NCBI RefSeq assembly: GCF_008710285.1
Contig: NZ_VYQF01000001.1
Coordinates: forward strand, 1,054,001-1,118,000
Source of the DNA: Ginsengibacter hankyongi
GTDB lineage: Bacteria; Bacteroidota; Bacteroidia; Chitinophagales; Chitinophagaceae
Length of the DNA: 64,000 bases
Reading direction: 5' to 3'
The position numbers were made by a program, and so were the translations under genes. Within the stretch, counting starts at the first letter, position 1. Each line of letters begins with the position of its first letter. Positions 8,422 to 16,700 of the stretch are shown here, piece by piece. Below the pieces are notes generated by a model. It was not told the origin of the DNA, ran no database searches, and was given only the letters and a program-made list of their open reading frames with translations.

Positions 8422-9219
8422 CTATGACGCAATAGTTGCGCCTAAAATTGAGTTAAGAAATTTTTCGGTATCGGCTTCAATATCATTTGAATTTTCAATT
8501 GCTTTAATGTAGGCCGTGCCAATAATGGCTCCTGCAGCATGTTTGCAGGCTTGTAAAAATGTTTTATTGTCTTTAATACCAAAACCAATCAAAATTGGAT
8601 TGTTAAGCTTCATGTCTCTAAGCCTTTGAAAATATTCTTCCTGAGCGCTCATATCTTTATCAGAACCAGTGATCGAAGAAGATGAAACTGCATATATAAA
8701 TCCTTTGCTCAACGCATCAATCTTTCGTATTCTTTTTTCGCTTGTTTCGGGCGTAATTAAAAAAATAAAATCGAGCTTATATTTTTCAAAAATATTTTTG
8801 TATTCGATTTCATATTCATGCAATGGAAGGTCCGGTAAAATTATTCCATCAATTCCGGCTTTATGTGCATCGCTGCAAAATTTTTCTATACCGTACTGTA
8901 AAACCGGGTTGAGATATCCCATTAAAATTAATGGGGCCTTAACTCCTGAAGGGGAATTAGAATACTTATTGAGTTGGTCAAATAATAGTTTAATCGACAT
9001 TCCATTCTGCAAAGCCTTCATACTGCTATGCTGAATAACAGGCCCATCAGCCAAGGGATCGCTGTATGGCATTCCAATTTCAATAAGGTCAGCTCCATGT
9101 TTTTGCAAAACATTAAGAATTGTGTTCGTATCATTCAATTCAGGAAAGCCTGCAGTAAAATATATACTTACAATATTTTTTTTCTTATCAGAAAATAATT
9201 TTTTTATCCTGTTCATCAT
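8422..9219 (-). CDS. trpA: Tryptophan synthase alpha subunit
   Basis: 265 residues, the normal length. It is a TIM barrel that cleaves indole-3-glycerol phosphate to indole, which is channelled to TrpB. The family signatures are present: LIEIGMPYSDPLADGPVIQ contains the catalytic Glu and Asp, and GIDGIILPDLPLHEYE follows. The phosphate-binding loop is near FGIKDNKTF. It is the last gene of the trp operon, 60 bases after trpB. The N-terminal MMNRIKKLF offers two adjacent Met codons and either could be used. Confidence 0.97.
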   Translation of the reverse strand: MMNRIKKLFSDKKKNIVSIYFTAGFPELNDTNTILNVLQKHGADLIEIGMPYSDPLADGPVIQHSSMKALQNGMSIKLLFDQLNKYSNSPSGVKAPLILMGYLNPVLQYGIEKFCSDAHKAGIDGIILPDLPLHEYEIEYKNIFEKYKLDFIFLITPETSEKRIRKIDALSKGFIYAVSSSSITGSDKDMSAQEEYFQRLRDMKLNNPILIGFGIKDNKTFLQACKHAAGAIIGTAYIKAIENSNDIEADTEKFLNSILGATIAS

Positions 9220-9279
9220 TCAAAAAATGCTATTGATTTTGATATTCTAACTTTTGGAAAATTTAAAACTTGCCAAAAG

Positions 9280-10476
9280 TTATTGCGTAGTAATATGCTT
9301 CATATATGTATCCATATCCTTGTCTCCTCTCCCGCTAAGATTTACAATTACTACATCATCTATTTTAAATTTTATTTTATTCAAAACATATAATGCATGT
9401 GCAGATTCCAATGCAGGAATAATCCCTTCCAGCTTTGCCAGTTCAAATGCCGATTCCAGCGCTTCTTCATCAGTTGCACTCATAAATGTTGCTCGCTTAC
9501 TTTCGAATAAGTGGGCATGCATCGGGCCAATGCCAGGGTAATCCAGCCCTGCTGAAATGCTGTGTGGTTCTATAACCTGCCCATCCTGTGTTTGCATCAC
9601 GAGGCTTTTACTTCCGTGTAAAATTCCATTGGTCCCCAATTGGGTTGTCGCAGCACTCATACCGCTATTAATACCTTCGCCTGCAGCTTCCACTGCAATT
9701 AGCTGAACTGACTTATGATTTAAAAAATGATAAAAAGCTCCCGCCGCGTTGCTTCCTCCGCCTACACAAGCGATCATATAACCAGGTAATTGGTTGCCTG
9801 TTTTTTCCTTCAGTTGCTTTTTAATTTCTTTACTTATTATGCTTTGAAAGCGAGCGACCATATCAGGATATGGATGCGGCCCAACGACGCTGCCAATTAT
9901 ATAATGTGTATCATCGGGATTATTGATCCAATCGCGTATAGCCTCATTGGTCGCATCTTTCAGCGTTTTGCTTCCACTCACTGCAGGAATAACTTTAGCG
10001 CCAAGCATCTTCATTCTTGCAACATTAGGTGCCTGCCGTGCAATATCTTTTTCGCCCATATAAACAATACACTCAAGTCCTTTTAAAGCGCACACTGTTG
10101 CAGTGGCAACACCATGCTGTCCGGCTCCCGTTTCTGCAATAATTCTTTTCTTTCCAAGTCGCTCTGCCAATAAAATTTGCCCAATTGTATTATTGATTTT
10201 ATGAGCACCGGTGTGGCAAAGATCTTCACGCTTTAAGTAAATGTTAGTATGATATTTTTCACTCAGCCTTGCCGCTAAGTAAAGTGGCGTGGGCCTTCCT
10301 ACATAATCTTTTAACAGCGAAGTAAATTCCTTTTTGAATTTTTCTTCCTTAATAATTTTCAAATAATTGTCTTTCAGATGCTGAACATTATTATGTAACA
10401 TTTCCGGAATGTATGCGCCTCCAAACTCTCCGTAGTAGCCATTCTTATCAACTTCAAAAATTTCTTTTGTTTTCAT
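9280..10476 (-). CDS. trpB: Tryptophan synthase beta subunit
   Basis: 398 residues. It is a PLP enzyme joining indole with serine to form tryptophan. The PLP lysine is in [15 protein letters not shown], preceded by the KREDL motif; [10 protein letters not shown] binds the PLP phosphate; and the C-terminal HALYVLNKI and NLSGRGDKD are standard. The N-terminal [16 protein letters not shown] marks the canonical TrpB1 that partners TrpA rather than the stand-alone TrpB2. It starts 10 bases after the trpF stop. Confidence 0.97.
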
Positions 10477-10486
10477 TTTATCTTAA

Positions 10487-11128
10487 TCAACTATTTTTTT
10501 CTAATAATTCCTCAGCCATAGTTTTTACTGCCTGCATATCTTTTACACCTTCGGAAATCTCCATTCTGCTGTTTACATCAACACAATAAAAAAAAGGATG
10601 GTCAAATGCTTTCAGTTTCTCAACATCATTTAGGGTGATACCACCGCTTAAAAAAAACGGCTTATTAATTTTATTTTGCTGCAAAATTTTCCAATCAAAT
10701 TTTTCGCCTGTTCCTCCATAGGCATTTTTACGGTTGGTATCAAACAGGTAATAATCACAATATTCTTCATACGGTTTTATCATCCAGTCAATATTTTGCT
10801 CATTGGATTGCGTGATTCTAAAAGCTTTTATAACAGTAATACGATCGCTTATAGTTTTACAAAATCCCGGTGTTTCATCTCCGTGTAGTTGAACGATATC
10901 CAGTGCAAAATCTTCCACCTGATTCATGATATATTCTTCGTCGGCATTTACAAATACCCCAATTTTCTTCAATGCAAGTTCCAGGGGCCGAACATCCTCC
11001 GCGTTTAATTTATTAATTACACACCTTGCAGACTGTTTATAAAATATAAGCCCTGCATAGTTTACACCAATTTCATCCAATTGTTTCAACTGTTCCAATT
11101 GCGTGATCCCACAAACTTTTAATTTCAT
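10487..11128 (-). CDS. trpF: Phosphoribosylanthranilate isomerase
   Basis: 213 residues. It performs the Amadori rearrangement of phosphoribosylanthranilate to CdRP. KVCGIT at the N-terminus has the catalytic Cys. LIFYKQSARCV, VQLHGDE and YLFDTNRKNAYGGTGEKFDW (catalytic Asp and phosphate loop) are all present. It is a free-standing enzyme here, not fused to TrpC as in enteric bacteria. The upstream gap to trpC is 91 bases, the largest spacer of the operon, and it contains a short imperfect tandem repeat. Confidence 0.96.
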   Translation of the reverse strand: MKLKVCGITQLEQLKQLDEIGVNYAGLIFYKQSARCVINKLNAEDVRPLELALKKIGVFVNADEEYIMNQVEDFALDIVQLHGDETPGFCKTISDRITVIKAFRITQSNEQNIDWMIKPYEEYCDYYLFDTNRKNAYGGTGEKFDWKILQQNKINKPFFLSGGITLNDVEKLKAFDHPFFYCVDVNSRMEISEGVKDMQAVKTMAEELLEKNS

Positions 11129-11170
11129 TTTTAAATTTTTGTTACTCTAATTTTTGTCACACCAATTTTT

Positions 11171-11194
11171 CGATTTTCACGAATTACACGAATT
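11171..11194. repeat. Imperfect 9-base tandem repeat in the trpC-trpF spacer
   Basis: TTCACGAAT (11176-11184) is directly followed by TACACGAAT (11185-11193), 8 of 9 bases matching, in the otherwise AT-rich 91-base spacer. I see no promoter or terminator in the spacer. The motif resembles short interspersed sequences that I recall from Bacteroidota genomes, but I cannot verify a copy number here. Confidence 0.5.
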
Positions 11195-11219
11195 AGTTTT
11201 TTTGATTTATGTAATACTC

Positions 11220-12020
11220 TTATACTCCCATTTTATTCACTGAACCCAACTCATGGGCAAAATATTGAAATGCGGCTCCGGGATCTTCTTCTTTCATAAA
11301 TCTTTCTCCAATTAAAAATCCATTAAAACCATGTTCTTTTAAAAGCTTTATTGATTCGGCATTATCAATACCACTTTCTGAAATTTTTACTTTACCAGCA
11401 GGTATTTGGTTACTTAATTCTATCGAGCGGTTAATATCTACAGTAAAACTTTTAAGATCACGGTTATTAACTCCAACAACATCTACATCATTGCAAATAT
11501 GGGCAAGTTCCTGCTCATTGTGAATTTCAAGTAAAACATTCAAACCAATATTTTTTGCCAAAGAAGCCAAAGTCTTTACTTCATCTTTTGTTAGACATGC
11601 CGCTATCAATAATATTACTGCAGCCCCATAAGATTTTGATTCTATCAATTGGTATTCATCAATAATAAAATCTTTTCTCAATAATGGAACCTCATTAATT
11701 GTTGATTCTAACAAATCATTTAAAGAACCACCAAAAAATTCTTCATCAGTAAGAACCGAAATTGCGCTGGCGCCATATTTTGCATATGCCGTTGTTACTT
11801 CTGTAACAGAAGTCCTGTCATTTATAATTCCTTTTGACGGGGATTTTCTTTTATATTCTGCAATGATTCCTGTTTTATCTTCTCTTAATAAATACTCTTT
11901 AAAAGACAGCGTTTCATTTCTAAAGAACCGGCCATTTTCCAACTCGGAAATACTCTTGTTTCTCTTTCTTTCCGCAACTTCTATTTTCTTTTTTGCAATT
12001 ATAGTGTCCAAAATATTCAT
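11220..12020 (-). CDS. trpC: Indole-3-glycerol phosphate synthase
   Basis: 266 residues. It closes the indole ring by decarboxylating CdRP. The conserved lysine segments are visible: ILDTIIAKKKIEVAERK at the N-terminal helix, IAEYKRKSPSKGII (catalytic Lys and phosphate binding), VPLLRKDFIIDEYQL, VLLEIHNEQEL and GVNNRDLKSF. The ATG lies directly after the stop of trpD with no spacer, which suggests translational coupling. It is a stand-alone TrpC, as expected with a separate trpF. Confidence 0.97.
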   Translation of the reverse strand: MNILDTIIAKKKIEVAERKRNKSISELENGRFFRNETLSFKEYLLREDKTGIIAEYKRKSPSKGIINDRTSVTEVTTAYAKYGASAISVLTDEEFFGGSLNDLLESTINEVPLLRKDFIIDEYQLIESKSYGAAVILLIAACLTKDEVKTLASLAKNIGLNVLLEIHNEQELAHICNDVDVVGVNNRDLKSFTVDINRSIELSNQIPAGKVKISESGIDNAESIKLLKEHGFNGFLIGERFMKEEDPGAAFQYFAHELGSVNKMGV

Positions 12021-13013
12021 CTACTGAAGGCTTATTAATTTTACAAAAGATTGATATGCTTTTCCACTTTCAAGACTCTCAACCGCCAACTCATAACAAT
12101 GTTCATAATCCTGGAAATTTCCCGTTGAAGATAAGGCTATTGCAGCATTTGCAATTACAACTGCATTTTGCGCCCAGCTACCCTCTCCTTTCAAAATCTT
12201 CAAAAATATTTTAGCAGCTTCCTCTGTTGAATTACCGCCATAAATATCTTCAGCGCTCACCATTCTCTTTCCTAATGATTCTGCCGTACAAATTTTTTCA
12301 CCGTCATTGGTTATGATTTTTGTATCGCCGGTTAATGAAATTTCGTCGTAACCATCGAGGCTGTGAACGATTGTAAATTTAGCATTTGATTGCTGAAGCA
12401 AATAGGAATAAATGCGCGCCATTTCAAGGTTGTAGACACCGATAACCTGCACTTCGGGCAAAGCAGGATTTACCATTGGGCCAAGCATATTAAAAAAAGT
12501 GCGCACACCAAGATTTTTTCTTACCGGGCCAACCACTTTTAAAGCAGGATGAAATAAGGGCGCATGCATAAAACAAATATTTGCCTTGTCAACTTCATTC
12601 AATAATTTTTTACTATCAGATGAAAATTTATAACCATGGGCTTCCATTACATTACTTGCACCGCTTATAGAAGAAGCGCCGTAATTACCATGCTTTGCAA
12701 TTTTTTGACCCGTACCGGCAACAATAAAACAACTCAGCGTAGATATATTAAAGGTATTTTTTCCATCACCGCCTGTACCAACAATATCCAATACACTAAA
12801 GGCTTTTAAGTCAACTGGAACGCACAATTCAATCAGTGCATCCCGAAAACCAAGTAATTCAGGAATGGTGATACTGCGCATAAGGTACACCGTTGTAAAC
12901 GATGCAATTTCAGCATCAGAATATATTCCTTTGGAAATATTCACGAGTATTTCCTTTGCTTTATCCCTTGATAAAGTTTTATGCTCAAATAAATATTTAA
13001 GAATCTCTTTCAT
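12021..13013 (-). CDS. trpD: Anthranilate phosphoribosyltransferase
   Basis: 330 residues. It transfers the phosphoribosyl group from PRPP to anthranilate. DIVGTGGDGKNTFNIST is the PRPP-binding signature; KHGNYGASSISGASNVMEA and GVRTFFNMLGPMVNP are also characteristic. The N-terminal helical domain (about residues 1-70) is complete. It is not fused to TrpG. It lies four bases after trpG and abuts trpC. Confidence 0.97.
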   Translation of the reverse strand: MKEILKYLFEHKTLSRDKAKEILVNISKGIYSDAEIASFTTVYLMRSITIPELLGFRDALIELCVPVDLKAFSVLDIVGTGGDGKNTFNISTLSCFIVAGTGQKIAKHGNYGASSISGASNVMEAHGYKFSSDSKKLLNEVDKANICFMHAPLFHPALKVVGPVRKNLGVRTFFNMLGPMVNPALPEVQVIGVYNLEMARIYSYLLQQSNAKFTIVHSLDGYDEISLTGDTKIITNDGEKICTAESLGKRMVSAEDIYGGNSTEEAAKIFLKILKGEGSWAQNAVVIANAAIALSSTGNFQDYEHCYELAVESLESGKAYQSFVKLISLQ

Positions 13014-13017
13014 ACTA

Positions 13018-13596
13018 CTATTTTAACCAGTTACGCATCATCAATTCACCCATGGGCGTTAACACGCTTTCCGGATGAAATTGTACGCCCTGCACATCAA
13101 AAGTTTTATGTCGCAAAGCCATTATATATCCATTTTCATCCTCCGCAGTTATTTCAAGAGCAGCAGGAAAATTTTCTTTACTTACAATCCATGAATGATA
13201 GCGGCCAACTTCCAGTTCATTATCTAACGAATTAAATATATCATTTTCGGATTTCGTTCTTTCAGCATTCACTTTAATTTTTGTGGCCACACCGTGATAT
13301 ACCGTTGTTAAATTTACGAGGCTTCCACCAAAGGCTTCACCAATTGCTTGCTGGCCGAGACATACTCCTAGTATGGATTTAGAAGAAGCATATTCTTTTA
13401 TAAGTGGCAGCAAAAGTCCGGATTCAACCGGGATTCCGGGGCCCGGCGATAAAATTATTTTATCATACTCCTTTACTTTTTCAAGTGGTATTTTATCGTT
13501 ACGATATACTTCAACCTTATCATTAATTACTTTTTCAACAACATGAACAAGGTTGTAGGTGAAAGAATCATAATTATCAAAAATCAAAATTTTCAT
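13018..13596 (-). CDS. trpG: Anthranilate synthase glutamine amidotransferase subunit
   Basis: 192 residues. It is a class I glutaminase that feeds ammonia to TrpE. The catalytic triad is visible: Cys in GVCLGQQAIGEAFGG, and His and Glu in VQFHPESVLTP. SPGPGIPVESG forms the oxyanion region. Some TrpG proteins also serve folate synthesis as PabA; the position between trpE and trpD supports the tryptophan role here. It starts three bases after trpE ends. Confidence 0.96.
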   Translation of the reverse strand: MKILIFDNYDSFTYNLVHVVEKVINDKVEVYRNDKIPLEKVKEYDKIILSPGPGIPVESGLLLPLIKEYASSKSILGVCLGQQAIGEAFGGSLVNLTTVYHGVATKIKVNAERTKSENDIFNSLDNELEVGRYHSWIVSKENFPAALEITAEDENGYIMALRHKTFDVQGVQFHPESVLTPMGELMMRNWLK

Positions 13597-13599
13597 TCT

Positions 13600-15018
13600 C
13601 TATATTTTTTCTGCAGATTTAATTGCTAATGTAAGTGCGTTTAATTTATTGGTAACTTCCTGCAACTCACTCGTAGGGTTAGACGCAGCAACAATGCCGG
13701 CTCCTGCCCTGTAAATAAGATTATTTTGTTTACTTAAAAAGGTACGTATCATAATAGCATGGTTAATGCTTCCGTTAAATCCAACGAAACCAATACAACC
13801 TCCGTAATATCCTCTTGCATCTTTTTCAAATTCATCAATAAGCTGCATGGCTTTATATTTTGGTGCACCGCTTAATGTACCGGCGGGAAAAGTAACTCCC
13901 AATAAATCAAACGGATTACTGTTTTCAGGGACTTTACCCTTAACCTCACTTACCAAATGAATAACATGTGAAAAATATTGAACCTCGCAAAAACGGGTAA
14001 CCTTTACTTCATTACATAAACGGCTCAAATCGTTACGGGCAAGATCGACCAGCATTACGTGCTCGGCATTTTCCTTTTCGTCTTTCGCCAATTTTTCAGC
14101 AAGGTCTTCGTCAACAGCATCATTCCCTGTCCTCTTAAAAGTACCAGCGATAGGGTGTACGACAGCTATATTATTTTGAACGATTAGCTGGCTTTCGGGG
14201 CTACTTCCGAACAATCGATAATCACCATAATCAAAATAAAAAAGATAAGGGCTGGGGTTAATATTTCTCAATGCCCGGTACACATTAAATTCATCTCCCG
14301 AAAATTTTTGCCGGAATTTACGGCTTAGTACCACCTGGAAAACATCTCCTCTTGCACAACTGGCAATTCCTTTCTTAACCATGTTCATATATTCTTCATC
14401 ACTTAAAGAAGATGTTTCTTTTTGCACAACCGCAAAAGGGTAAGCAGGAACATCTTTACTTTTAATAAGACTCTCCACAATATCAATTTCACTCTCAATT
14501 CCTTTTATATGATTTTCACAAATAAAAAGTTCATCTTTAAAATGATTGATAACTATAACGTACTGGTATAAACGATAACGAACGAGTGGAATTTGAGGAT
14601 GCTCACTCTCTCTTAACGCCTTAAATTTTATTTCTTCAAAAAATTGTATAGCATCAAAAGTTATATAGCCAAATAATCCCTGAGCCTTACTTACAGGGAG
14701 TGATACTAGCTCACCGATAGCAAAATATTGCATAAATTTCCATAGCTCATCTGCAACTTTTGTATCGTTTGTAATTTTAATTTTTTGAATATTCTGTGAT
14801 GGTAACTTAAATTCAATTTCCTGGTAGTTGCTTATTTCAATGCCCGCAATTGCATTGATTCCAATAATGGAAAAACTGTTTTCCCCTACATGAAAATCGG
14901 TGCTTTCCAATAAAACCGTATCCCGGAAACGGTCGCGAAGGCGCAGGTATATTCCAACAGGCGTATATACATCTGCCAATAATTTCTTGTACGTAGTAGA
15001 TAATTCTATTTTCTTCAT
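13600..15018 (-). CDS. trpE: Anthranilate synthase component I
   Basis: 472 residues. It converts chorismate to anthranilate with TrpG. The N-terminal LLESTDFHVGENSFSIIG corresponds to the tryptophan feedback site (LLES). The C-terminal chorismate-binding domain contains VFQVVLSRKFRQKF, DLARNDLSRLC, FPAGTLSGAPKYKAM and GYYGGCIGFVGF. It is the first structural gene of trpEGDCFBA. The ATG is only 5 bases beyond the T-run of an intrinsic terminator, so it is controlled by the leader upstream. Confidence 0.97.
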   Translation of the reverse strand: MKKIELSTTYKKLLADVYTPVGIYLRLRDRFRDTVLLESTDFHVGENSFSIIGINAIAGIEISNYQEIEFKLPSQNIQKIKITNDTKVADELWKFMQYFAIGELVSLPVSKAQGLFGYITFDAIQFFEEIKFKALRESEHPQIPLVRYRLYQYVIVINHFKDELFICENHIKGIESEIDIVESLIKSKDVPAYPFAVVQKETSSLSDEEYMNMVKKGIASCARGDVFQVVLSRKFRQKFSGDEFNVYRALRNINPSPYLFYFDYGDYRLFGSSPESQLIVQNNIAVVHPIAGTFKRTGNDAVDEDLAEKLAKDEKENAEHVMLVDLARNDLSRLCNEVKVTRFCEVQYFSHVIHLVSEVKGKVPENSNPFDLLGVTFPAGTLSGAPKYKAMQLIDEFEKDARGYYGGCIGFVGFNGSINHAIMIRTFLSKQNNLIYRAGAGIVAASNPTSELQEVTNKLNALTLAIKSAEKI

Positions 15019-15023
15019 AACAT

Positions 15024-15049
15024 AAAAAAACCCCGGCTTAGTGCCGGGG
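15024..15049 (-). terminator. Attenuator terminator of the trp operon
   Basis: On the minus strand the hairpin CCCCGGC, a 5-base loop and GCCGGGG (15031-15049) are followed by seven T residues (15024-15030), just before the trpE ATG (15018). It is a textbook intrinsic terminator placed ahead of, not after, a gene. Confidence 0.9.
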
Positions 15050-15091
15050 CGTAATATTTATTTAATATACAAATAAAGCTATGCGGCACAA

Positions 15092-15139
15092 TCAGGAGAT
15101 TGATTGCCACCAGCTATTATATGTATTTTTAATTTTCAT
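15092..15139 (-). CDS. trpL: trp leader peptide with tandem Trp codons
   Basis: A 15-codon ORF, MKIKNTYNSWWQSIS, starts with ATG at 15139 and ends in TGA at 15092. Two consecutive TGG codons (15112-15107) sit near its end. Tryptophan is rare, so WW in so short an ORF just ahead of an intrinsic terminator and trpE is strong evidence for a regulatory leader peptide. No Shine-Dalgarno is visible, which is usual for Bacteroidota. If the suggested promoter is right, the 5' leader is only a few bases long. Confidence 0.85.
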   Translation of the reverse strand: MKIKNTYNSWWQSIS

Positions 15140-15147
15140 TTGCACAG

Positions 15148-15179
15148 CAAAGATGTAATGAAAAATATTAAATAACAAA
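15148..15179 (-). promoter_or_regulatory. Possible trp operon promoter
   Basis: On the minus strand TTTG (15179-15176) is followed after about 20 bases by CATCTTTG (15155-15148), one mismatch from TAnnTTTG. Transcription would start within a few bases of the leader ATG. This is an imperfect match, offered as a candidate only. Confidence 0.35.
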
Positions 15180-16452: not shown

Positions 16453-16592
16453 GATTAATTACTTTTTTAATTATTTAAATAATTCTGCGAAGATATTTCT
16501 TTATTAAAGAATTTTTGCGAAGTTAAAAATTGAGTTAAAACTGTGGAGTTATAAATTCCTGGAAACACAGGTAAATTGATTGTAAAAAAAAT

Positions 16593-16688
16593 CGGCAAGT
16601 TACTTACATCGCACCGCTCAACCACATACCCTTGCTATCTTCCGATCCTGGGGGAGTTCTGTAGGAGCTGGCCGTATAAGACTTGCCG
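16593..16688 (-). ncRNA. ffs: Signal recognition particle RNA, small bacterial type
   Basis: Read on the minus strand, the ends pair perfectly (CGGCAAGT with ACTTGCCG, 16681-16688 and 16593-16600). The apex carries the universally conserved SRP domain IV: CAGG, then ATC-GGAA-GAT, then AGCA (about 16633-16650), a GGAA tetraloop over the asymmetric loop that binds Ffh. A run of T residues (16584-16591, as A on plus) follows the 3' end as terminator. The roughly 100-base length fits the 4.5S-type RNA. A TATATTTG box lies just upstream. This occupies most of the 326-base gap between the aldolase and plug-protein genes; the remainder shows nothing notable. Confidence 0.9.
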
Positions 16689-16692
16689 GCTG

Positions 16693-16700
16693 CAAATATA
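16693..16700 (-). promoter_or_regulatory. -7 box of the SRP RNA gene
   Basis: TATATTTG on the minus strand is an exact TAnnTTTG match and ends about 5 bases before the first paired base of the SRP RNA, just where the start point is expected. The -33 element is not clear. Confidence 0.65.

Follow-up and report, generated by a model that had tools for sequence, protein, structure and literature searches.

Evidence for a probable ribosome-mediated trp attenuator ahead of trpE in Ginsengibacter hankyongi and its relatives

Tryptophan peptide leader RNAs are listed for Bacteroidetes in Rfam as Bacteroid-trp (RF01692; Weinberg et al. 2010, PMC2864571). In Flavobacterium psychrophilum, which belongs to the same phylum as the organism studied here and to a different family, transcript mapping gave strong clues for leader-peptide attenuation at the structured 5′ regions of amino-acid operons; the main text of that work makes no mention of tryptophan or trpE (PMC9723704). 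Our literature search found no experimental study of trp attenuation in Bacteroidetes; a 2010 survey by Lopatovskaya may list such leaders. We analyzed a 64,000-nt stretch of the Ginsengibacter hankyongi genome (contig NZ_VYQF01000001.1, positions 1,054,001 to 1,118,000; hereafter the window), and conclude that the trpEGDCFBA operon it carries is very probably controlled by a ribosome-mediated transcriptional attenuator.

The attenuator region and the operon lie entirely on the minus strand of the window. The first gene, trpE (13600..15018), encodes anthranilate synthase component I, with TIGR00564 as its best match at 412 bits, a score under the curated cut-off of that model. On its 3′ side, trpG, trpD, trpC, trpF, trpB and trpA (8422..13596) follow in the same orientation, each with an NCBIfam match, which gives the order trpEGDCFBA from the leader onward. 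The gene upstream of the leader is divergent, and therefore no read-in transcript is expected from it. A small SRP RNA is also found in the window at 16589-16695 on the minus strand (Rfam RF04183, 89.8 bits).

An initial annotation, made by eye, had proposed attenuation on the basis of a 15-codon ORF with adjacent TGG codons, two mutually exclusive pairings and an intrinsic terminator close to trpE, and this reading is correct in every detail that could be checked. The leader peptide ORF, MKIKNTYNSWWQSIS*, runs from 15139 to 15092 (15 codons plus stop, with the ATG at 15139 and the TGA at 15094-15092), and its position and Trp codons are kept in relatives. The adjacent Trp codons TGG TGG (15107..15112) sit, as described, inside the 5′ arm (region 1) of the 1:2 hairpin, in which GTGGCA (15110-15105) pairs with TGCCGC (15088-15083). 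Directly 3′ of the leader stop codon lies the region 2 core, GTGCCG (15084..15089), followed after a 37-nt, mostly AT-rich spacer by the region 3 core, CGGCAC (15041..15046), which can partner either region 2 (antiterminator) or region 4 (terminator). The intrinsic terminator and its T-run span 15024..15050, with the hairpin GCCCCGGC-ACTAA-GCCGGGG(T) at 15050-15030 and the T-run at 15030-15024; the trpE ATG at 15018 comes five bases (ATGTT) after the T-run, the same interval that had been noted by eye. The distance from the leader ATG to the terminator, estimated as about 90 bases, is 89 nt. With a minimum free energy (MFE) of -43.2 kcal/mol (z = -5.46), the leader is more stable than all 200 of its shuffles, and its MFE structure contains both the 1:2 hairpin and the terminator. 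A two-codon ORF, ATG TTA TGA (15023-15015, minus strand), overlaps the trpE start codon and is present in some, though not all, close relatives.

The marks of a ribosome-mediated trp attenuator can be read from this region: a short, putatively translated ORF that places tandem Trp codons ahead of a trp gene, an intrinsic terminator between the leader and the first gene, and a predicted, mutually exclusive antiterminator pairing. In the proposed mechanism, RNA polymerase would transcribe the short leader ORF with its two Trp codons, and scarcity of Trp-tRNA would stall the ribosome at these codons, covering region 1; regions 2 and 3 would then pair, the terminator would be blocked and the operon would be transcribed. 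With plentiful tryptophan, the ribosome would reach the stop codon adjoining region 2 and cover region 2, whereupon regions 3 and 4 would pair and transcription would stop just short of trpE. The sequence elements, their conservation and covariation, and the computed effect of each ribosome position on folding are shown here; termination itself, its tryptophan dependence and the transcription-translation coupling in G. hankyongi are steps that we infer.

Ribosome occupancy was modeled by folding only the RNA left free, with the front edge of the ribosome assumed to lie 13 nt from the A-site codon. A ribosome placed on the first Trp codon gave an antiterminator occupancy of 0.97, one on the stop codon gave 0.32, and the untranslated RNA gave 0.50, the corresponding values for the G. 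hankyongi leader being 0.98, 0.34 and 0.00. In silico, then, the position of the ribosome selects the structure. Once complete, the terminator usually prevails at equilibrium even when the ribosome is stalled (0.95 for the G. hankyongi leader), and regulation must therefore be kinetic. Kinetic trapping is accepted for E. coli attenuation.

Conservation was assessed on 233 trpE upstream regions, nearly all from Chitinophagaceae, gathered by searching whole genomes of close relatives and of the family at large, together with named genomes (mostly Chitinophagaceae such as Ferruginibacter, Terrimonas, Flavihumibacter, Filimonas and Chitinophaga); some genomes were present in both sources, and the distinct leaders with a terminator number 185. 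The initial annotation had named relatives lacking conserved Trp codons or the alternative pairing as the observation that would count against attenuation. Adjacent Trp codons within a short ORF mark 224 of the 233 regions, 212 of which have a terminator beyond the ORF, and the alternative pairing is conserved. The leaders hold two to four TGG codons each, spaced mostly 50-69 nt from the terminator. Within the genus of G. hankyongi the peptide is of the type MKINNTYNSWWHTI(S), and its usual form in the wider family is M(K)xxxxNNxWWWHTNSxRGL. Of 61 further loci outside the family, 55 have a short ORF ahead of trpE in which two or more Trp codons fall in a stretch of five, by a loose criterion that had no shuffle control. 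The terminator abutting trpE, noted by eye, is typical of the genus but does not characterize the family: about 11 nt lie between the hairpin stem and the trpE ATG in G. hankyongi, and 9-22 nt in most of the genus, but across relatives this distance varies between about 9 and 529 nt with the T-run and terminator retained. Abutment was considered as a mechanism and was rejected as a general feature. Three loci (L012, L018 and L059) have extra sequence between the terminator and trpE, placing the leader ~300-480 nt upstream.

Covariation among trpE upstream regions, the check suggested for the initial reading, was examined in a structure alignment of 33 sequences. Paired cells amounted to 89.1% in the 1:2 helix, 93.4% in the 2:3 antiterminator and 93.6% in the terminator, with far lower values for slid versions. 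Antiterminator pair 28-76 is C-G in 16 sequences, U-A in 15 and U-G in 2, and terminator pair 76-87 is G-C in 14 and A-U in 13; a single position triple across regions 2, 3 and 4 accordingly reads C, G, C in about half of the sequences and U, A, U in most others. This compensatory change, common to the 2:3 and 3:4 helices, supports both as predicted from the alignment, with the qualification that the double-sided antiterminator change concerns a single base pair in related sequences and may reflect few evolutionary events. Antiterminator pair 31-74 is broken in 10 of the 33. The pairing of GTGCCG with CGGCAC, the alternative seen by eye, is also borne out energetically: in 179 leaders, the mean energy of region 2 paired with the region 3 of the same leader is -14.3 kcal/mol, compared with -11.8 when region 3 is swapped, -7.9 when region 2 is shuffled and -2.4 for the coding part of the leader. 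In a set of mostly Chitinophaga loci (L222, L224, L227-L229, L231 and L236), the post-Trp segment (CCGCTGTGT...) favors the 3′ arm of the terminator (about -20 to -28 kcal/mol) over the 5′ arm (-11 to -15 kcal/mol), and these modeled energies suggest a rewired antiterminator.

Upstream of the leader ORF lies a candidate promoter on the minus strand, consisting of a -7 box, CATCTTTG (15148..15155), of the Bacteroidota TAnnTTTG type with C at its first position, 8 nt before the leader ATG, and a -33-like element, TTTG (15176..15179), 20 nt upstream of the box. The -7 box occurs in 167 of 196 unique leaders, as against 3% of shuffles, and 80% of the box-bearing leaders have C at position 1, where the consensus is T. 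Among the 167 aligned leaders, TTTG stands 19-21 nt upstream of the box in 135, and the leader ATG follows 4-10 nt (median 7) downstream of it in 160. Transcription in Flavobacterium johnsoniae starts 4 or 5 nt after the -7 box (PMC6847099); applied here, this distance predicts a start at 15142..15143 and a 5′ UTR of 3-4 nt, and at the median of the aligned leaders a 5′ UTR of 2-3 nt. It is therefore reasonably likely that the Chitinophagaceae trp attenuator uses a nearly leaderless leader ORF, with a conserved TTTG-N20-YAHHTTTG promoter setting a predicted start 2-4 nt before the AUG, from which it follows that the sensing ribosome would have to initiate at the extreme 5′ end. Leaderless messages and very short leaders are otherwise rare in the phylum: leaderless messages make up 5.5% in F. 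psychrophilum (PMC9723704), and 3.7% of 5′ UTRs are under 10 nt in Bacteroides thetaiotaomicron (PMC7366714); Shine-Dalgarno-dependent initiation is not expected in Bacteroidota (PMC6847099).

Other explanations for this arrangement were weighed against attenuation. Short ORFs and hairpins are frequent in AT-rich DNA, and a short ORF might by chance have come to precede an unrelated terminator. This idea is refuted by the shuffles and has next to no credibility left: none of 3000 dinucleotide shuffles of the G. hankyongi trpE upstream region produced an adjacent-TGG ORF with a suitably spaced terminator, and over the relatives an ORF with terminator was found in 186 of the 233 real regions versus 1 of 6990 shuffled ones, in addition to the conservation of the Trp-codon ORF in nearly all of them. 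Equally improbable is that the leader ORF is incidental and the operon is under TrpR, TRAP or T-box control. These are the other well-known controls of trp operons; yet neither TRAP (PF02081) nor TrpR (PF01371) has a match in the G. hankyongi genome, in searches that detected their positive controls, no T-box matches in the window, where the SRP RNA is the sole gathering-level Rfam match, and the Trp codons are conserved.

Control might instead be mainly translational, the terminator hairpin near the trpE start blocking ribosome binding until translation of the leader, or re-initiation, opens it. The closeness of the stem to the trpE ATG in G. hankyongi and most of its genus would suit such an arrangement, and mRNA structure tunes initiation in Bacteroidota (PMC6847099). 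Set against it is the widely varying distance from hairpin to trpE in relatives that nevertheless keep the T-run and terminator, and we regard mainly translational control as quite unlikely. Transcriptional attenuation, with its Trp-codon leaders and covarying antiterminator and terminator columns, remains the reading that the data support.

At the hisG locus of the same genome (L315; G000:C1 near 17.5 kb), the reverse complement from index 1224 encodes a His-rich leader, MTKTIHIHHHFLSKGKLC*, just after a TTTACTTTG box, and a terminator lies between this leader and hisG. Relatives have similar His leaders (L309-L313 and L316-L319), and the hisG leader looks like a putative his attenuator of the same architecture as the trp leader.

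Beyond the initial annotation, our analysis adds a candidate promoter and a predicted near-leaderless start, shows that the leader is conserved in Chitinophagaceae and further, and exposes a gap in what the Rfam model covers. A Bacteroidota trp leader that is known but little studied is thereby extended to a family in which the public model does not detect it. Because the phylum does without Shine-Dalgarno initiation, the leader also offers a clean case in which to test how transcription and translation are coupled there. Its geometry, short and regular, and its predicted near-leaderless start should make reporter testing easy.

Several described systems share parts of this design. The trp leader of Sinorhizobium meliloti is leaderless. 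Mycobacteria have leaderless small ORFs (PMC4633059). The G. hankyongi leader resembles both in that its ORF is predicted to start at or almost at the RNA 5′ end, whereas the phyla are unrelated and the promoter type differs. With the E. coli type trpL (RF00513, Trp_leader), it has in common a Trp-codon leader peptide, the 1:2, 2:3 and 3:4 alternatives and a terminator before trpE; it differs in scoring 26.0 bits against a gathering score of 41, in having no TrpR partner in the genome, and in belonging to a phylum where initiation is not expected to depend on a Shine-Dalgarno sequence (PMC6847099). Rfam matches to PrrF, anti-hemB and other sRNAs were sub-threshold and were attributed to the terminator and AT-rich flank.

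Like RF01692, the G. hankyongi leader is a Bacteroidetes Trp-peptide leader sited ahead of trp genes, but its score of 18.9 bits with that model falls below the gathering cut-off of 49. At that cut-off, none of 119 Chitinophagaceae genomes has a match, and the published model therefore misses the Chitinophagaceae clade. Several weak RF01692 matches within the family do sit directly upstream of trpE, and a relative outside the family (L257) has a gathering-level match within its trpE locus. A covariance model built from the leader (R1) finds one convincing site in the G. hankyongi genome, at 93.1 bits with the next best at 26, and its strongest matches across the 119 family genomes sit upstream of trpE. 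The attenuator is thus real and of a known kind, a member that lies beyond the reach of the published Rfam model.
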